Notes under the pieces: generated by a model
Databases searched by the model: none
The model's input: the letters and a program-made list of their open reading frames with translations, nothing else
What the model was told of the DNA's origin: nothing
From: Gammaproteobacteria bacterium
GTDB lineage: Bacteria > Pseudomonadota > Gammaproteobacteria > Pseudomonadales > Azotimanducaceae
Direction: 5' to 3'
Length of the DNA: 64,000 nucleotides
Assembly (NCBI GenBank): GCA_026706385.1
Contig: JAPOYV010000111.1
Span: 1 to 64,000 of the forward strand
Made by a program: the position numbers and the translations under genes
Shown: in pieces, positions 1 to 10,741 of the stretch
How positions within the stretch are numbered: the first letter of the stretch is position 1
Layout of the letters: the number at the start of each line of letters is the position of its first letter

Positions 1-79
1 CGATGTGTGCAGTTTTCGATTGCCGGAAATGGGAGATTTACAGTTGCCAGCTACAAAGGGTGACCTCGCTGCGGCGGCT

Positions 80-94
80 AGTTCGTAACGAACT
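80..94. promoter_or_regulatory. 15-bp palindrome in front of the DUF2971 gene
   Basis: AGTTCGT and ACGAACT form perfect 7-bp arms around a single central A, ending three bases before the ATG at 98. The position would suit an operator or a hairpin over the ribosome binding site. No protein can be named for it. Confidence 0.35.
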
Positions 95-97
95 GCC

Positions 98-868
98 ATG
101 ATCCTGTACAAGTATGCCTCGATTGGTGCAACACGCCAAATCATCTCGACTGGACGAATTGGATTTTCTCGGGCTGGGTTCTTCAACGACCCATTCGATA
201 AACCCTATGTGCCGTCACCGCTCACGCCAGACCCAATCAGCGGCATCTTTGAAGATACTCACGCGACCACAAAGAGTTATGTTTGGGAAGAACGGACTGG
301 GATTCTGTCTCTCACCCGGTCTTACTCAAACGCGCTGATGTGGGCACACTACGCAGAAGGCCACACTGGGGCCGTGCTTGAGATCAACGTCGAAAAAGCG
401 GGGTTTACGGACATAGAGACGAATTTGATTCCCGCCCAATTTGGAACAGTGGTCTATTCGCGACATAGGCTAAATTGGCCATTCGTGTCGGATTTCGACG
501 AAGGAATTGCCGTTGGCGAAACGCACCGATTCGTCTTGAGTCACTACGAGAAATGGCAGCGGTTGTTTCTGACGAAGCCATTGGACTGGGCGTATGAGGA
601 GGAAGTTAGGGTTGCTAAGTGTCTAGGTGGTCTGGAGCCGCATGGAAATTCAACAAATGAGAGTGGGAATTGCACCATCAAAAATCTCGGCAATAGGCCA
701 TTGCACTGTTTCGAGTTCCCAAGGGAGGCGATCACCCGCCTCTTCGTCGGCGCCCGCGCAAGCGCGACGGAAGTCGCCGCTCTGGAGGAGGAATGTGGAG
801 AATTGACGATAGTCCGAGCTGCACTTGATGACGAGCGATTCGAGATGCGTTTCCAAGGGATTGAGTAG
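98..868 (+). CDS. DUF2971 family protein
   Basis: This 256-residue soluble protein has the DUF2971 signature near its N-terminus: an L-Y-K-Y start, then a G-R-I-G-F-S-R segment and F-N-D-P-F-D at about residues 38-43. A middle tract (SYSNALMWAHYAEGH) is also typical of the family. The biochemical role of DUF2971 is not established; members often sit in variable islands. The coding strand is visibly AT-richer than the rest of the window, and relics of a recombinase and of a PIN toxin follow directly, so horizontal acquisition is likely. The ATG at 98 is preceded by a 15-bp palindrome and no strong Shine-Dalgarno sequence. No signal peptide or membrane segment is visible. Confidence 0.75.
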   Translation: MILYKYASIGATRQIISTGRIGFSRAGFFNDPFDKPYVPSPLTPDPISGIFEDTHATTKSYVWEERTGILSLTRSYSNALMWAHYAEGHTGAVLEINVEKAGFTDIETNLIPAQFGTVVYSRHRLNWPFVSDFDEGIAVGETHRFVLSHYEKWQRLFLTKPLDWAYEEEVRVAKCLGGLEPHGNSTNESGNCTIKNLGNRPLHCFEFPREAITRLFVGARASATEVAALEEECGELTIVRAALDDERFEMRFQGIE

Positions 869-870
869 CC

Positions 871-1080
871 TAACGGGTGAGTGCTGCAGGGCCGAAGTAG
901 TGTCTTTGATCACGTGGCGTGTGGGTCCTGCGGCGCCGAAAAGGATGTCTTTGAGCAAGCTGTCCACGAGGCTCTCGGCGGCGGATTTCGCGGAGTGCGG
1001 CGCAAGGTGGGTATAGCGCGATGGTCTAGGACTAACGGTGGCCGAGGAGCGTGACGATCACCGTCGGGCTGTGGCCCCCG
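871..1080 (-). pseudogene. Tyrosine recombinase (integrase) C-terminal relic
   Basis: Read on the minus strand from about 1075, one frame gives GHSPTVIVTLLGHR, followed by TAG, Ser, TAG, Thr-Ile. After a frame change it continues RYTHLAPHSAKSAAESLVD. These match the end of the catalytic domain of phage-type tyrosine recombinases: the conserved L-L-G-H-R block and the R-Y-x-H-L-x-P block carrying the nucleophilic tyrosine, at the normal spacing. Two stop codons and a frameshift lie between them, and the catalytic arginine region upstream is gone, so it is dead. Its remnant points toward the DUF2971 gene. The identification rests on motif recognition alone. Confidence 0.6.
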
Positions 1081-1143
1081 CGAGCGCCAGCCCAAGAGTG
1101 GAAGAGGGCTCAGAGGACAAGGGGTGGGGAGGCTCGGGCGAAA

Positions 1144-1348
1144 ATGAAACGGACGAGTGTCCCGATCTATGCACGACGCCCGCGACCAACGAAAGTGCGC
1201 ATGTGCACTGGAGCTGCTGCTGCGCTTGCTTCGTGCGTGGCGTGGGGCGGTATCGACCCAGGTACTCCAGGAGTTCTTCGCGGTGGCAACGCGATGGCGC
1301 GTGCACAACGCGCTGAAGCGACGACATGCAGGACGGGCGGACGATTGA
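1144..1348 (+). pseudogene. PIN-domain (VapC-like) toxin relic
   Basis: From the ATG at 1144, one frame gives MKRTSVPIYA. The next frame then gives HDARDQRKCACALELL...AWRGAVSTQVLQEFFAVATR. This matches the start of PIN-domain toxins: an 'MKR..D.NV.IYA.D' N-terminus, the A-L-E-L-L helix, and the very characteristic V-S-T-Q-V-L-Q-E-F segment with the conserved acidic residue. At least one frameshift has occurred and the D-T-N part of the first motif has been lost. After ATRW the similarity ends, and no C-terminal acidic motifs are visible. No antitoxin gene lies next to it. From 1349 to the sigma-factor start at 1527 I see nothing recognisable. Confidence 0.6.
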
Positions 1349-1526
1349 CGCTCTGGCGGTGCCTGATCCTTTCGCCATCACCGACGTCTGACCAAGTGCC
1401 GCCCGCATCCACCGTATCCTTTTCCGATCGGTTTGGGTCTCTAGCCAAGCAAGTGCGGGCCGAGTCAGTCGACTTGGGGCGAGTTGCCTCGGCGACTCGG
1501 AGCACGCGGAAGGAAGCCGCCTGACG

Positions 1527-3347
1527 ATGACATCCGAGCACAATACCTCGTGGCTCGCCGACACCGTTCGACGTGCGCAGCGCGGGGAACTGGCGGCGTT
1601 CCGCGAACTCGTGCTGCGGTTTCAGGACATGGTGGTCGGCTACGCGTTCTCGACGCTCGGCGACTTCCATCTGGCGCAAGACGCTGCTCAAGAGGCGTTT
1701 CTCGCCGTGTACCAGGACCTCGCCTCGTTGCGACAGCCCGGCGCGTTGGTGCCCTGGTTGCGGACCGTAGTCTCCAAGCACTGCGACCGCATCAGCCGTC
1801 GCCGTCGCGACGCGGAGCCCCTGGAAGCGGACGACGAGCGCTTTCTCGCCGACGCCCCGACGCCCCTCGATGCGATCGAGCAGGACGAAGTCGAGGAACT
1901 CGTGGGTCGCGCCATCGCGTCGCTGCCGACGAAGCAACGAGACGTCGTCTCGCTCTACTACATCGGCGAGCAGTCGGGCCGCGAAGTGGCCACGTTCCTC
2001 GAGGTGCCCCTCACCACCGTCAAGAAGCGCTTGCATGACGCCAAACCGAAACTGAGAAGGAGCATGGCAAGAATGACCAAGGAGTTCTTGGAAGAACACA
2101 GGCCCTCCCGGGACAGCGACTTCAGCGAACGGGTGCTGCGGCTGGTAGCCCCGGATCCGCATAAGGACGCCGCCGCGGTGTACCGGCTGTTCGAGGCCGA
2201 AGACCACCCGAGTCGCCACGAGTGGCGAGCCGGACGTCTCGCCGACAGCCACGTCGACTGGCGCGTGTCGCGGATCGCCTTCGAGCGCGAAGCGGGAGTA
2301 GAGAACCTGGTGGCGGCGCTGAACGTCTACGACATGGCGATGCAGATCGGCAGTGCCGAGGTGCGCGTCGCGGGTATCAACGGCGACGTTCAGAGCGCAG
2401 ACCTGGCCGGTTCGCGTGATGACATGCTCGACCGGATCGCCGGCGAAGCCCTCGGATCCCTACGCGAAGAGGGCTACGACATGGCCGTGACATTCGATGA
2501 CGAGGCGTTCTGGTTGCGCCACGGTTTCGCGCTCGGCTGGCGAGCCCTGCAGTGGCAGGTTCTCGTGGCCGACCTGCCGGCGAGCGGCGTGCCGGAAATC
2601 GAGCGCGTCGAGTCGGTCCATGCCGACGACTTGGCCGCGGTGTACAACGGCGCGACCCGCGGGCTGACCGGTACCGTCCGCCGTCCGACCTATCGGCGCA
2701 ATAAGCACCCCGGGGAGTTCTCGACGTACTTGTGGCGCGGAGCAGACGGTTTGACGGCTGGCTATGTCAGCGGCAACCCCGGACCCGGCGAGTATTTCTG
2801 GGTGGATGAGGTCGCCGGCGACGCGGCCACGGCCCTCGCGGTTCTGCGCTCCGTTGCCGAGGCCGAGAACTGTACGGAACTGTACTTCGACCGACTCCAC
2901 TACAAGAGCGCGGTCGGGGTGCAACTGCGGCAGATGGGCTCAACCCGCCTGTCCACGGGTCACAGGTCCGGTAAAGCACGCTGGTACGTGGCGAGGATCG
3001 TCAACCTCAAGGCCACGGCAACCAAGCTGGCACCGATGCTCCACGAACGGCTTCTGGCTTCCCCGTTGGCCGGTTGGCGCGGGTCGCTGTCCATCTGCCT
3101 CGAACAGGACGATGGCGCCGAGGCCGTCACCTTGGCGGTTCAGGACGACAGGGTGGACGTGCGCGACGGGGCGGTCGGCAGCCATGCCATCAGCGGCGGC
3201 CAGGCGGTCGCGCAGCTTCTGCTCGGCGCCGAGGAGGCGAAGGAAGTGGTCGCCGTGAACGGCATCGAAGTCCGCGGCGATGCCGCCGCCCTGCTGCCCG
3301 TGCTGTTTCCCGCCCAATGGCCGCAGATGGAGAACCAGGCGCTTTAA
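1527..3347 (+). CDS. Sigma-70 (ECF) factor fused to Eis-like GNAT/SCP2 module
   Basis: The 606-residue protein begins as an ECF sigma factor. Region 2 covers about residues 10-95 (F-R-E-L-V, then D-A-A-Q-E-A-F) and region 4 about 118-180 (the L-P-x-x-Q-R-D-V-V-x-L-Y-Y helix, then a helix-turn-helix V-P-L-T-T-V-K-K-R-L). The rest resembles the Eis type of N-acetyltransferase: a first GNAT-like domain at about 200-345, with E-E-G-Y-D-M-A and F-W-L-R-H-G-F, a second at about 350-480, and an SCP2-like domain at about 490-600. The Arg-Gly-rich acetyl-CoA loop expected between V-A-G-I and the following helix is degenerate (A-G-S-R-D-D), so the module may sense a ligand rather than acetylate. No anti-sigma gene is adjacent. 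The HIT gene converges on it with one base between the stop codons. Confidence 0.8.
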   Translation: MTSEHNTSWLADTVRRAQRGELAAFRELVLRFQDMVVGYAFSTLGDFHLAQDAAQEAFLAVYQDLASLRQPGALVPWLRTVVSKHCDRISRRRRDAEPLEADDERFLADAPTPLDAIEQDEVEELVGRAIASLPTKQRDVVSLYYIGEQSGREVATFLEVPLTTVKKRLHDAKPKLRRSMARMTKEFLEEHRPSRDSDFSERVLRLVAPDPHKDAAAVYRLFEAEDHPSRHEWRAGRLADSHVDWRVSRIAFEREAGVENLVAALNVYDMAMQIGSAEVRVAGINGDVQSADLAGSRDDMLDRIAGEALGSLREEGYDMAVTFDDEAFWLRHGFALGWRALQWQVLVADLPASGVPEIERVESVHADDLAAVYNGATRGLTGTVRRPTYRRNKHPGEFSTYLWRGADGLTAGYVSGNPGPGEYFWVDEVAGDAATALAVLRSVAEAENCTELYFDRLHYKSAVGVQLRQMGSTRLSTGHRSGKARWYVARIVNLKATATKLAPMLHERLLASPLAGWRGSLSICLEQDDGAEAVTLAVQDDRVDVRDGAVGSHAISGGQAVAQLLLGAEEAKEVVAVNGIEVRGDAAALLPVLFPAQWPQMENQAL

Positions 3348-3348
3348 G

Positions 3349-3804
3349 TCACGGCGCGGCGGCCAAGTGCTTGCGGATTCGTGCTGCAACGGCAAGGCGC
3401 TCGGCGACGGGCGCCTTGCCGAAGTGAGCCTCGCCGAAGATCGCGGATCCCTCGTCCCCCTCGGGTCGCGGCACGACGTGGACATGCACGTGGGAGACGG
3501 TCTGTCCGGCGTTCGAGCCGTTGTTCTGGAAGATGTTCACACCTGGTGCGCCGAATGCCGAGCACGCCGCCACTGCGATCCGTTGCGCGTGGACGGTGAC
3601 GGCGCCCCACTCCTCGGCCGTCATGTCGAAGATGGTGGCCACGTGCCTGTCCGGAATCACCAGCGTCGCCCCGGGGCGGTACTGTCGTGGATTGACGAAG
3701 GAACTGACGCCGTCCGATTGGCTGACGAATGCGCATCGCGGATTCGTGCCCGAGAGGTTCCGGCAGAACGGGCATGCGGGATCATGGTCGGGTGTCGTGT
3801 TCAT
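3349..3804 (-). CDS. HIT family hydrolase
   Basis: This 151-residue protein belongs to the histidine triad superfamily, which hydrolyses or transfers nucleotidyl groups. The catalytic H-V-H-V-H-V block lies at about residues 108-113, preceded by the usual N-N-G-x-x-A-G-Q-x-V-x-H. The nucleotide-binding strand N-I-F-Q-N-N and the early L-V-I-P-D-R-H segment are also present. An N-terminal C-P-F-C pair at about residues 11-14 suggests a partial zinc site, as in many bacterial HIT proteins. Substrate cannot be inferred. It stands alone, converging with the sigma-factor gene. A degenerate second copy of its last 40 bases lies at 3957-3997. Confidence 0.85.
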   Translation of the reverse strand: MNTTPDHDPACPFCRNLSGTNPRCAFVSQSDGVSSFVNPRQYRPGATLVIPDRHVATIFDMTAEEWGAVTVHAQRIAVAACSAFGAPGVNIFQNNGSNAGQTVSHVHVHVVPRPEGDEGSAIFGEAHFGKAPVAERLAVAARIRKHLAAAP

Positions 3805-3956
3805 GTCGCGTCAGAAGGAATGAGCCGCGGCGATTCTAGGGACGTCTTCCGCGACAATCGACGGCAGCCGCCCGGATTCGCACGGCCACAGTCCGATTGC
3901 GACGCCTGATTCGGGCGTCCCTGTAGGTCTCTCCTAGAAGAAGCGTGGCGCCGCCG

Positions 3957-3997
3957 TAAGTCACGGCATCGTGGCCAAGTGCTCGCGAGTTCCTGCG
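3957..3997. repeat. Degenerate duplicate of the HIT gene 3' end
   Basis: TAAGTCACGG, GGCCAAGTGC and T-T-C-x-T-G-C line up with positions 3345-3385, at about 32 matches in 40. The first copy spans the sigma-factor stop and the HIT C-terminus. The second lies upstream of the HIT start and codes for nothing recognisable. It looks like a scar of a local duplication or a decayed earlier HIT copy. Confidence 0.5.
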
Positions 3998-4077
3998 GGT
4001 AAGCGTGCGGACATCCCGCCTGCATCGGGGCTTGACACGGAGTCCTGCTTCGGGATGTTTGGGCACGCGGCGGTTTT

Positions 4078-4118
4078 ATCCTTGTAATTTGTCCACCCGG
4101 TGGTCAATATGCAAGGAT
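4078..4118. promoter_or_regulatory. 41-bp palindrome abutting the ATPase start codon
   Basis: Arms of 20 bases match at 16 positions around a central C at 4098. The outer ends are ATCCTTG and CAAGGAT and the inner ends CCACC and GGTGG. The right arm ends at 4118 and the ATG begins at 4119. It could be an operator or a hairpin that hides the start. A TTGACA hexamer at 4032-4037 would be a fair -35 element, but no good -10 follows. The 3805-4077 stretch otherwise holds only the HIT-tail repeat. Confidence 0.55.
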
Positions 4119-5300
4119 ATGGTCCCTCGCAACGCCCAACCCGACCTTTTGGCCGCGCTCGCGGTGCAGCCAGCGGTCGCCATCACCGGTCCGCGTCAAT
4201 GCGGCAAGACGACGTTGGCGCTCGATGTCGCCGGGCAGCGCGAAGCGGTCTACCTCAACCTCGAGGATACTGACGACCGCAACCGCCTTGCCGAGCCCGT
4301 GCTGTACCTCGACAGTGTCGATGACCGGCTCGTCATCCTGGACGAGATCCATCGTACACCGGAGCTATTCCAGACGCTGCGCGGCGTGATCGACGAAGGC
4401 CGTCGCCGTGGTAAAGGCGTCGGGAGGTTCCTCGTTCTCGGCTCGGCGTCGATCGACATGTTGCAACAGACTGGCGAGTCTCTCGCGGGTCGAATCAGCT
4501 ATCTCGACCTGACGCCGTTCACGCCTTTGGAAGTGGAAGCGGATCGAGCGGCGCGCGAGCGCCTCTGGCTACGCGGCGGATTCCCGATGAGCTACCTCGC
4601 GCCCGACGACGCCGCAAGCCTGGCGTGGCGCCGCGACTTCATCCGCACTTACCTTGAACGCGACGTGGCGGCGTTCGGCCCCCGCATCCCCGCGACCGCC
4701 TTGGAGCGACTCTGGACCATGCTGGCGCACCGGCAAGGCCAGTTGCTCAATGCATCCGCCTTGGCCCATGCGCTCGACGTCAGTCCGCAGTCCGTGACCC
4801 GCTATGTCGATCTCCTGGTCGACCTGCTACTGGTCCGGCGCCTGTCGCCTCACGTCGCCAACGTCGGCAAGCGTCTGGTGAAGTCGCCGAAGATCTATGT
4901 GCGCGACAGCGGCCTGGTTCACGCACTGCTGGGCATCCCCACGGTGCAGGCGTTGGCCGGCCATCCTGTGGTCGGCCAAAGCTGGGAGGGTTTCGTGATC
5001 GAGACGCTGGTCAGCGCGACTCCGTGGCCGGCCACGGCGTGGTTCTATCGAACGAGCGGCGGTGCCGAAATCGACCTGGTCATCGAGTTCGCCTCCAACG
5101 AGACTTGGGCCGTCGAGATCAAGCGATCCCTCGCCCCGAAAGCCACCCGCGGCTTCCACACGGCGTGCGCCGATCTGACGCCGGCGAGGGCGTTCGTGGT
5201 GTACGCGAGGGACGAGCGGTTCCCGATGGCACGAGGCATCGAAGCGATCGGGGTCGTGGAACTCGCGACCATGCTCGTCGAGCGAGCCGACGCGCCGTAG
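4119..5300 (+). CDS. AAA ATPase with DUF4143 domain
   Basis: The 393-residue protein has the two-part architecture AAA_14 plus DUF4143. Walker A is G-P-R-Q-C-G-K-T at residues 24-31, and Walker B is L-V-I-L-D-E-I-H at about 73-80. A winged-helix-like segment with L-D-V-S-P-Q-S-V-T-R-Y lies at about 215-230. The C-terminal part holds a PD-(D/E)xK-like core: E-I-D-L-V-I-E-F and then W-A-V-E-I-K. The family is common in mobile and defence-rich DNA, and its cellular role is unknown. The ATG at 4119 is chosen because it directly follows a 41-bp palindrome and begins the conserved part. An upstream in-frame ATG at 4005 would add 38 unconserved residues. Confidence 0.8.
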   Translation: MVPRNAQPDLLAALAVQPAVAITGPRQCGKTTLALDVAGQREAVYLNLEDTDDRNRLAEPVLYLDSVDDRLVILDEIHRTPELFQTLRGVIDEGRRRGKGVGRFLVLGSASIDMLQQTGESLAGRISYLDLTPFTPLEVEADRAARERLWLRGGFPMSYLAPDDAASLAWRRDFIRTYLERDVAAFGPRIPATALERLWTMLAHRQGQLLNASALAHALDVSPQSVTRYVDLLVDLLLVRRLSPHVANVGKRLVKSPKIYVRDSGLVHALLGIPTVQALAGHPVVGQSWEGFVIETLVSATPWPATAWFYRTSGGAEIDLVIEFASNETWAVEIKRSLAPKATRGFHTACADLTPARAFVVYARDERFPMARGIEAIGVVELATMLVERADAP

Positions 5301-8084: not shown

Positions 8085-9437
8085 TTGGCCGATCGCATTC
8101 TGGTCGCGGACGATCAGGCTGACATCGTTGACGCACTGCGCCTGCTGCTGAAGAGCGCGGGATTCGCGGTCAAGGCGGCCGATTCGCCAAGATCCGTGCT
8201 GGCAGCCGTTGTCGGTCGCGAATGGGACTGCGTGCTGATGGATCTCAACTACACGCGGGACACGACGTCGGGGACGGAAGGCATGGACCTCCTGCGCTCG
8301 TTGCGCGAGATCGACGCCACCTTGCCCATCGTGACGATGACCGCCTGGGGCAGCGTCGAGGGCGCCGTGGAAGCCATGCGCCGCGGCGCGGGCGACTACA
8401 TCGAGAAGCCCTGGGACAACCAGCGGCTCGTGGCGACTTTGAAGACGCAGATCGAACTGGGTCGCGCGAGGCGGCGAGGCCAGCGGCTAGCGGCCGCCAA
8501 CCGACGCGAGGAACTCGTCGCGGATGACGACTTCGTCGCGACCTCGCCGGCTATGCGGCCGGTGCTGGAGTTGATCGCGAGCGTCGGGCCGTCGGATGCC
8601 AACGTGCTGATCACCGGCGAACACGGCACCGGCAAGGAAGTCGTCGCGCGACGTCTGCACGCGGTGTCGCGCCGCGCAGGCCAGGCGTTGGTGACGGTGA
8701 ATGCGGGTGGTTTCAGCGAGGGCGTGTTCGAAAGCGAACTCTTCGGCCATGTGCGGGGTGCGTTCACGGACGCCAAGACCGACCGGGCGGGCTGCTTCGA
8801 GCTAGCCCATGAAGGCACGTTGTTCTTAGACGAGATCGCCAACCTCCCTTTCGCGCAGCAGGGCAAACTCCTGCGCGCCCTCGAGAACCGCGAGATCCAA
8901 CGTGTCGGTTCCACGAAGATCCGCAAGGTGGACGTCCGGGTCATCTCCGCGACCAACGCGGACATCGCGCAGGCGGTGGCCGAGCGGCAGTTCCGCGAAG
9001 ACCTGCTATATCGCCTGAACACGGTGGAAATCCACCTGCCGCCACTCCGTGAGCGTCCGGAGGACATTCGCGAACTCGCCAACCGGTTCGTCACCCGGGA
9101 GGCCGCTCATTACGACAAGCCGTTGGACGGGTTCAGCGACGAAGCCTTGGAGGTGGTTGCTCGACATGCGTGGCCCGGCAACGTCCGCGAACTGCAGCAC
9201 GCCGTGGAGCGCGCCGTCTTGGTCGCCCGCGGCGCCGTGGTGTCCGCTCAGGACCTCGGGCTTCGCGCCCCAAGCGGCGAGCCGAACCTTACCGCGATGA
9301 CGCTCAACGAGGCCGAGCGCGTGCTGGTGCTGAAGGCTCTCGACCGCCACGCCGGCAACGTGACGCACGCAGCGCAGGATCTGGGCGTCAGCCGGGCGGC
9401 GTTGTATCGGAAAGTCGAGCGCCACGGTCTGAAATGA
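8085..9437 (+). CDS. Sigma-54-dependent response regulator (NtrC family)
   Basis: The 450-residue regulator has an N-terminal receiver with phospho-acceptor D53, an AAA+ domain and a C-terminal Fis-type helix-turn-helix (L-G-V-S-R-A-A-L-Y-R-K). Walker A is G-E-H-G-T-G-K-E at 178-185 and Walker B L-F-L-D-E at 246-250. The sigma-54-contacting loop reads GAFTDA (225-230) instead of GAFTGA. The TTG start at 8085 is chosen because AAGGAG lies six bases upstream (8073-8078) and the receiver begins there at once. Its stop overlaps the kinase ATG (ATGA), so the pair is co-transcribed. Three nearby sigma-54 promoters make the flanking ABC genes its likely targets. Confidence 0.9.
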   Translation: MADRILVADDQADIVDALRLLLKSAGFAVKAADSPRSVLAAVVGREWDCVLMDLNYTRDTTSGTEGMDLLRSLREIDATLPIVTMTAWGSVEGAVEAMRRGAGDYIEKPWDNQRLVATLKTQIELGRARRRGQRLAAANRREELVADDDFVATSPAMRPVLELIASVGPSDANVLITGEHGTGKEVVARRLHAVSRRAGQALVTVNAGGFSEGVFESELFGHVRGAFTDAKTDRAGCFELAHEGTLFLDEIANLPFAQQGKLLRALENREIQRVGSTKIRKVDVRVISATNADIAQAVAERQFREDLLYRLNTVEIHLPPLRERPEDIRELANRFVTREAAHYDKPLDGFSDEALEVVARHAWPGNVRELQHAVERAVLVARGAVVSAQDLGLRAPSGEPNLTAMTLNEAERVLVLKALDRHAGNVTHAAQDLGVSRAALYRKVERHGLK

Positions 9438-10741
9438 ACGCGTCCAGGCTGCGGCCGCTGGTCTTGCTGTTGGCGGTTGGCTTACCCGGCACGGTGGCGG
9501 CCCTGGCATTGCTTTGGACCGGAGCCCATTCCGAGACCCTGCGCTGGGCGTTGAGCGCCGCCTTGCTCCTGGCTTGGTTCGCCGGGGCCTTCTTCCTGCG
9601 AGCGCAGATCCACCGCCCCCTGCGCACCGTGTCGAGCATGCTCGCGGCTCTGCGCGCTGGCGACTACTCGATCCGCGCCCGACACGCCGGTGCGAGCGAC
9701 CCGCTGGCGCTCGTGTTCATGGAGATCAATGCGCTGGAGGAGCAGTTTCGTGAGCAACGCCTAGGCGCCGTCGAGGCCCAGAACGTCCTGCAGCGCGTAC
9801 TGGCCGAGATCGACGTGGCGGTGATGGCCTTCGACCAAGGCCACGCGTTGCGGGTGGTGAACCGTGCCGCGGAGCGCCTGCTGGGCGACACGGAAGCTCG
9901 GCTCCTCGGCAGAACGGCGACCGAGCTTGGCATCAATGAAGCGCTGGAGAGCGCCGCGCCCCGCACGATGGCCCGCAGCGAGCCGACCGGCCCGCGGCAC
10001 TGGCAGGTGCGCCGGAGCGTGATCCGTCAACAGGGAGAACGCTTGACGCTGGTGGTGATGACAGACCTCGAACGCACGTTGCGGGACGAGGAGCGCCAAG
10101 CGTGGCGACGGCTTGTACGCGTGCTCAGCCACGAGATCAACAACTCGCTGGCACCGATCAAGTCGATCACGGCCAGCGTGCAGGACCTGCTCAACAGGGC
10201 CGGCACGACGGACTGGGCTCAGGATGCGCAGAACGGGTTGGCGATCGTCGCGACTCGGGCGGAGTCGCTGCGTCGCTTCCTCGCCTCCTATGCACGGCTC
10301 GCCCGGCTGCCACCGCCGAGTCGGGCCGACGTCGACGTGGAGGCCTGGGTCCGGCATGTCGCGGGCTTGGAGACGCGCCTGCAAGTGACCGTGCGGGACG
10401 GCGAGTCCATACGCGTCCCGGCCGATCGCGATCAGCTCGACCAGGCGCTCATCAACCTGGTGGCGAACGCCGTCGACGCGACGTTGCAGACAGGCGGCGG
10501 TGTCGAGGCCTATTGGCGTCGCGAGGGACGCAACGTCGTCGTGACCGTCGACGACGAGGGCCCCGGACTCGCGGACGGCGGCAACCTGTTCGTGCCGTTC
10601 TATACGACCAAGCCCGATGGCTCGGGCATCGGTCTCGTGCTGAGCCAGCACATCGCCGAGAACCATGGCGGCTCGCTCACGCTCAAGAACCGCGAGGGCA
10701 GTAAAGGTGCGCGGGCCCGGCTGTCTTTGCCGGTGGCTTGA
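9434..10741 (+). CDS. Membrane sensor histidine kinase (NtrB/NtrY-like)
   Basis: The 435-residue partner of the regulator has two N-terminal membrane helices (about 8-28 and 37-55) with a very short periplasmic loop. A HAMP-like segment and a PAS-like domain follow (about 115-215). The phospho-acceptor block is L-S-H-E-I-N-N-S-L-A-P-I-K with H233. The ATPase domain has N-L-V-A-N-A-V-D-A (N box), D-D-E-G-P-G-L (G1) and G-S-G-I-G-L (G2). The small periplasmic part suggests it reads membrane or cytoplasmic state rather than a bulky external ligand. It overlaps the regulator by four bases. Confidence 0.9.
   Translation: MNASRLRPLVLLLAVGLPGTVAALALLWTGAHSETLRWALSAALLLAWFAGAFFLRAQIHRPLRTVSSMLAALRAGDYSIRARHAGASDPLALVFMEINALEEQFREQRLGAVEAQNVLQRVLAEIDVAVMAFDQGHALRVVNRAAERLLGDTEARLLGRTATELGINEALESAAPRTMARSEPTGPRHWQVRRSVIRQQGERLTLVVMTDLERTLRDEERQAWRRLVRVLSHEINNSLAPIKSITASVQDLLNRAGTTDWAQDAQNGLAIVATRAESLRRFLASYARLARLPPPSRADVDVEAWVRHVAGLETRLQVTVRDGESIRVPADRDQLDQALINLVANAVDATLQTGGGVEAYWRREGRNVVVTVDDEGPGLADGGNLFVPFYTTKPDGSGIGLVLSQHIAENHGGSLTLKNREGSKGARARLSLPVA

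Follow-up and report, generated by a model that had tools for sequence, protein, structure and literature searches.

A gammaproteobacterial ECF sigma factor joined in one reading frame to an Eis-like GNAT-GNAT-SCP2 module

ECF sigma factors are most often controlled by an anti-sigma factor encoded as a protein of its own. ECF factors that carry a regulatory extension at the C-terminus of the same chain are also an established kind, and the extensions described in section 3.5 of PMC8999054 are SnoaL-like, TPR, WD40, cysteine-rich and membrane anti-sigma domains. The main text of that paper holds no word beginning with "acetyl", and no title or abstract opening found among open-licence PMC papers names a fusion of a sigma factor with an acetyltransferase. 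The acetyltransferase Eis, as presented in PMC8556138 and PMC4964394, employs a P-loop and Tyr126, with the C-terminal carboxylate as remote base. In the stretch of DNA analysed here (64,000 nucleotides, hereafter the window) one gene joins an ECF factor to a module of the Eis type, and we describe its sequence, its relatives and the promoter motif that accompanies it.

The fused gene, its relatives and its neighbours

The gene is a single intact open reading frame of 606 codons; it and its sigma regions are placed as follows.

1527-3347, + strand, stop codon included: fused ECF sigma/Eis-like protein, 606 residues (ATG start, zero internal stops; orthologues)
1608-1808, + strand: sigma-70 region 2, residues 28-94 (Pfam PF04542, Sigma70_r2, E 2.3e-9)
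1899-2051, + strand: sigma-70 region 4, residues 125-175 (Pfam PF08281, Sigma70_r4_2, E 3.5e-11)

Both sigma families passed the Pfam cut-offs, as the first-pass annotation had anticipated in assigning ECF regions 2 and 4 to the N-terminus, and the NCBIfam model TIGR02937 (sigma70-ECF superfamily) matched residues 24-179 above its cut-off (73.4 bits; cut-off 42.9). Regions 2 and 4 are adjacent, and regions 1.1 and 3 are absent by Pfam, the arrangement that defines ECF (group 4) factors. Judged by these profiles, residues 1-190 make up an ECF sigma factor. No membrane helix was evident in the ten fusion proteins inspected (highest 19-residue hydropathy 1.64). Purifying selection was found on both halves in 6/6 pairs of fusion genes, with dN/dS of 0.09-0.28 in the sigma part, 0.08-0.25 in the first GNAT-like domain, 0.12-0.35 in the central one and 0.20-0.43 in the SCP2-like domain.

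The survey of other genomes that the first-pass annotation had called for did find the same fusion elsewhere. By tblastn with residues 190-606 the module was present in 11 of 58 related genomes, its own included, and a profile search extended this to 15 of the 206 genomes of the family, in three genera, 12 of the 15 carriers having an intact copy. Ten intact genes, that of the window among them, gave a full-length alignment in which the rest are 58-90% identical to the window protein; two further intact fusions are those of G803 and G937. No intact fusion gene was split at the junction of sigma part and module. A frameshift or sequencing error joining two genes, which would have undone the first-pass reading, is excluded because 12 fused genes are intact in different genomes. 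The remaining three carriers have broken copies, by a frameshift within the sigma part (G005), fragmentation (G003) or an internal deletion (G936), and G008 has a gene fragment beside its full copy. In the last genome (G008:C158, L041, about 2054-2215 and 8502-10532) the fusion locus and its TauD-type neighbour occur twice, at a distance of about 9.5 kb, and one of the sigma copies has shrunk to a C-terminal fragment. At L160 (G936:C155) the intact promoter motif leads directly into the middle of the GNAT part, either because roughly 340 codons have been deleted internally or because the assembly is chimeric there. Many copies of a repeat about 100 bases long (L040, about 3860-3969) are also scattered through G001, G006, G008 and G011.

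Outside the family no carrier appeared in samples of the order (2/390, both of the same family), the class (1/369, the own genome) and the phylum (1/398, again the own genome); these samples were drawn evenly from the larger groups, and up to four candidates per genome were scored among the matches listed. A search of genome contigs gave two loci, L032 and L033, the latter being the gene of G806, and the MAG records with the module are Gammaproteobacteria bacterium isolates COS1_bin_18 and COS1_bin_8. A mobile or phage origin was considered and rejected, no relative being found in plasmids (tblastn) or viral contigs.

The surroundings of the gene differ among the four subclades, and no neighbour is common to all of them. 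In the window it adjoins DUF2971 and HIT genes, with AAA/DUF4143 and MacB-FtsX genes farther off; TauD and HpcH/HpaI genes are the neighbours in the subclade with an insertion in the module, a histidine kinase and an RF-1-type gene those in another. In two of the four subclades a gene for a large reprolysin-like protein is convergent with the fusion gene (L036 931-6657, L038 1650-6836 and L041 3279-8072), the three proteins sharing 33-35% identity and carrying FG-GAP or leucine-rich repeats. No anti-sigma domain was detected in the 14 neighbouring proteins scanned across fusion loci, and the protein has the make-up of an ECF factor with its extension in cis. In L037 and L038 another ECF gene lies directly upstream of the fusion; it is similar to an ORF elsewhere in the genome of the window (L009 649-2121, - strand, G000:C96), in which an ECF sigma factor has an in-frame tail of 284 residues without a Pfam match. 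The same genome has another ECF sigma ORF (L008 748-2451, - strand, G000:C116) running in frame into a tail of 251 residues that resembles the beta sliding clamp of DNA polymerase III (best PDB E 2.2e-4; no Pfam match), possibly a sigma/sliding-clamp fusion. ECF factors whose C-terminal domains are unusual seem to accumulate in this lineage.

The C-terminal module and its catalytic residues

The part of the protein behind the sigma factor was divided as follows.

2163-2582, + strand: first GNAT-like domain, Acetyltransf_9-like, about residues 213-352 (Acetyltransf_9, hhalign, AlphaFold models)
2415-2426, + strand: position of the acetyl-CoA pyrophosphate loop, RDDM, residues 297-300 (glycine of Eis-like proteins replaced)
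2511-2513, + strand: Trp329, at the motif-tyrosine column of Eis-like proteins (alignment with Eis-like rows)
2583-3005, + strand: central GNAT-like domain, about residues 353-493 (secondary-structure order and Foldseek)
3006-3344, + strand: SCP2-like domain, about residues 494-606 (weak SCP2_2 match; hhalign; model block confidence 80-94 except for the last 8 residues)
3306-3344, + strand: C-terminal tail FP.Q.PQM.NQAL, kept to the last residue (alignment of 10 fusions and 2 more)

Taken singly the sequences support the module weakly, and taken jointly they support it firmly. The window protein alone gave Acetyltransf_9 at E 0.055, under the Pfam cut-off, and no SCP2 match. When six C-terminal modules were scanned singly, Acetyltransf_9 appeared in all six (best 1.6e-4, the window's own 0.034) and SCP2_2 in one (E 0.035), as well as in one insertion-type relative (E 0.087). 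The first-pass annotation had let its reading stand or fall with a significant match to GNAT or SCP2 beyond residue 200; plain Pfam on the window protein did not give one, and the searches that included relatives did. The ten fusion modules were then compared profile to profile (hhalign) with 26 Eis-like proteins of related genomes, for which 26 of 30 loci gave a row and a wrong-frame row was left out (26 of 27 rows kept). The whole modules aligned colinearly with E 6.9e-7 and a score of 57.2, against a maximum of 29.5 over 20 column shuffles and 20.6 for the reversed profile. By domain, the first GNAT reached E 5.5e-6 (best shuffle 0.052) and the SCP2-like domain E 0.007 (best shuffle 0.027); the central GNAT, at E 0.19, is without support by sequence alone because the best shuffle (0.013) was better.

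Structure prediction, compared with Eis as had been suggested at the outset, pointed the same way. The AlphaFold model of the full chain, built from 10 sequences, had a pLDDT of 63, and that of the module alone a pLDDT of 73 with pTM 0.74. Foldseek searches with the module model returned 179 PDB matches at E <= 0.001, of which the best 50 were all Eis-type proteins (E 2.2e-17 to 3.1e-11 over 373-441 alignment columns), and the 50 PDB matches listed for the full-chain model were likewise all of this type (best E 1.6e-11). The non-mycobacterial PDB entries listed also match an Eis-like query at length by sequence. TM-scores normalised to the query were low, 0.21-0.28 for the full chain and 0.37-0.42 for the module (rmsd about 14), so that the relative placing of the domains in these models is tentative. 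We take the C-terminal 410 or so residues to be a soluble Eis-type GNAT-GNAT-SCP2 module, its central GNAT domain being recognised by structure, and the domain order proposed in the first-pass annotation was borne out. Four relatives have about 70 extra residues in the central GNAT-like domain of the alignment.

The residues on which acetyl transfer by Eis relies are a different matter, and here too the degenerate acetyl-CoA loop that had been noticed beforehand proved to be general. The glycine column of the loop holds D, N or E in 10/10 aligned fusions, and the CoA P-loop pattern Q/R-x-x-G-x-G/A is absent from the first GNAT of all ten; the pyrophosphate loop reads R-R/K-x-G in 26/26 correctly framed Eis-like rows of related genomes. 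At the tyrosine of the IYQRYGY motif the ten fusions have Trp and the 26 Eis-like rows Tyr. Judging from the motif, this column (Trp329 in the window protein) would be that of Tyr126 of M. tuberculosis Eis, the general acid, in which case the general acid is replaced by Trp in every aligned fusion. The C-termini of the fusions aligned with those of the Eis-like rows, the last 8 residues of the model being of low confidence. The replacement of both loop glycine and tyrosine in all ten relatives argues for a pseudo-enzyme, and, together with the conserved C-terminus and a dN/dS well below 1, the lost catalytic motifs indicate that the module is a conserved and probably non-catalytic Eis-type scaffold.

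A promoter motif before the fusion gene

Upstream of the gene three short elements were distinguished.

1414-1419, + strand: -35-like element GTATCC (GTATCC or GTATCT upstream of 10/10 aligned fusion genes and 2/2 later intact genes)
1435-1440, + strand: -10-like element GGGTCT, preceded by a 15-base spacer (invariant in the 10/10 aligned and the 2/2 later genes)
1449-1454, + strand: GCAAGT, a possible region of transcription start (noticed by eye in 9/13 promoters, 5-8 bases past the -10 element)

The motif GTATC[CT]-N15-GGGTCT stands 9 to 86 bases ahead of the ATG at 10/10 aligned loci and is also exact at G803 and G937, the intact fusions found later by protein profile, and at the deleted copy of G936, so that the shared promoter motif sought by the first-pass annotation does exist. 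Among five subclade representatives the two hexamers were 0.93 and 1.00 identical, the spacer 41% and the flanks 0.24-0.29, which is the level of chance. GTCT is frequent in the -10 elements of ECF factors, and the AAC usual in their -35 elements is absent from GTATCC here. In L039 (5949) and L041 (10532), genes of the insertion type, the chosen ATG lies just 9 bases past the -10 element, which implies either a leaderless mRNA or a mis-chosen start. Rfam gave no match in window positions 1-4200.

The motif co-occurs with the fusion. The pattern GTATCYN15GGGTCTY, counted by hand in 206 genomes against a backward control, occurred 66 times, 18 of them in the 15 carriers and 48 in the 191 other genomes. 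The control gave 2 and 58, respectively, so the matches in non-carriers are at chance level. Of the 18 carrier matches 14 precede the fusion gene and 4 a gene of the DUF5916 family; the fragmented fusion copy of G003 has no match before it. Allowing any base at the last position of the pattern added two exact copies in carriers, at G009:C363, inside a 710-residue frame, and at G005:C2, neither of them preceding a fusion or a DUF5916 gene. In the 5.1-Mb genome of the window the only match to the full pattern is the promoter of the fusion gene itself. A second target was not found there, the 4 sites with one mismatch comparing with 3 in the backward control; three of these four lie within long open frames and the fourth between two genes. 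Furthermore, the motif was absent within 300 bases of the frame start of the ten other ECF-like genes of this genome (best 9/12 positions). Autoregulation is common among ECF factors, and the conserved motif suggests that this protein, too, switches on its own gene.

The DUF5916 (PF19313) gene, which encodes a protein of 705 residues with an apparent signal peptide, is a putative second target. The motif precedes it in five genomes, namely the carriers G002, G003, G004 and G010, and G011. Among 22 rows of the family five had the motif at 12/12 positions and the other 17, two of which are parts of one gene, at most at 9/12. In G011 the fusion was not detected by tblastn or profile search, nor was the TauD-type gene that flanks the sigma locus (40 of 239 candidates scored). 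The fusion locus may be missing from that assembly, or another sigma factor may read the motif.

Readings of the fusion and comparison with known systems

The explanation we favour, and hold to be reasonably probable as a whole, is a one-protein system in which a ligand-sensing, catalytically dead Eis module sits on a self-activating ECF sigma factor. An Eis-type scaffold that has lost the residues of the acetyl-CoA loop and of catalysis would serve as a cytoplasmic regulatory domain acting in cis. Its small-molecule ligand, held perhaps between the two GNAT domains where the substrate pocket once was, would govern whether the sigma part engages RNA polymerase. The active protein would recognise GTATCY-N15-GGGTCT before its own gene, giving positive autoregulation, and in one subclade would also read the motif before the DUF5916 gene. 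We infer that the module controls the sigma part in cis, in the way of the C-terminally extended ECF factors treated in PMC8999054.

That the fused gene is an accidental read-through, an assembly error or a gene in decay is hardly credible. The broken copies of G005, G003, G008 and G936 might suggest decay, but 12 intact fused ORFs across three genera and purifying selection on both halves speak against it, and for the gene of the window it is refuted. More serious is the idea that the module has remained an enzyme, its CoA site being atypical, and that it acylates either a protein (RNA polymerase or the sigma part) or a small molecule, with the fusion delivering the activity to promoters. The tail kept to its last residue in the ten aligned genes would fit it, given the role of the terminal carboxylate in Eis according to PMC8556138, and MtAAC(2')-Ic, according to PMC4964394, binds CoA in spite of an atypical P-loop; all ten fusions, however, have lost the glycine (to D, E or N) and the tyrosine (to Trp) that all 26 Eis-like rows keep, and we regard this alternative as unlikely. 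An active acyltransferase being disfavoured by these replacements, the proposal of the first-pass annotation, a ligand-sensing or acylating domain in place of an anti-sigma factor, is best read in its ligand-sensing half, which stays conditional.

The module might also answer to a partner protein, or be a constitutive part without which the protein would not fold or bind the polymerase, with no small molecule bound. Extensions of ECF42 are thought to work through protein contacts (PMC8999054, in the part dealing with extensions), the stretch of about 70 residues inserted in four of the relatives suggests diversification of a surface, and the reprolysin-like neighbour recurs in two subclades (L036, L038, L041). 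This protein is large and apparently secreted, and therefore an unlikely cytoplasmic partner; none of the neighbours occurs in all four subclades, and the many invariant residues of the GNAT-like and SCP2-like domains, as judged from the alignment, seem to resemble a pocket more than a surface. We consider such a role doubtful. That another sigma factor reads the motif, the fusion gene being merely one of its targets, would account for G011, where the motif stands before DUF5916 and the fusion was not detected. Against it are the absence of the motif within 300 bases of the frame start of ten further ECF-like genes in the genome of the window, the position of all 18 carrier matches before fusion or DUF5916 genes and the general prevalence of autoregulation in this class of factors, and it appears quite improbable.

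On a broader view, a whole Eis-type acetyltransferase may have been recruited, rendered catalytically inactive and converted into the ligand-sensing part of a sigma factor, its former drug or amine pocket becoming the receptor of a self-activating one-protein switch, a proposal for and against which we see the balance as even. If true, the dead Eis module would be a new type of receptor for single-chain ECF factors and would show a resistance-type enzyme scaffold turning into a transcriptional sensor. We know of no earlier sigma factor with a pseudo-acetyltransferase as receptor. The footprinted promoter offers a direct handle for testing the activity of the sigma factor and seeking the ligand.

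Among known systems, the fusion shares with Eis and the type V tandem GNAT acetyltransferases the GNAT-GNAT-SCP2 order, the conserved C-terminus and, by Foldseek, the fold; it differs from them in sitting behind a sigma factor and in having lost the P-loop glycine and the motif tyrosine. The DUF5916 (PF19313) proteins are its putative target and not a part of it. With the CorE-like ECF factors (ECF238) it has in common an on-board sensor placed C-terminal of sigma region 4, which in their case, as given in PMC8999054, is a metal-binding cysteine-rich domain and here would be the Eis-type module. ECF41 (SigJ, Ecf41Bli) is, in the account of PMC8999054, likewise a soluble single-chain ECF factor in which a C-terminal enzyme-like domain replaces the anti-sigma factor. 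The extension of ECF41 is one SnoaL-like domain, whereas that of the fusion comprises about 410 residues of Eis type; no SnoaL match was found by Pfam in the fusion protein or the members, and its fold matches Eis-type proteins. By analogy the fusion may work in the ECF41 manner, though not as a member of that group.
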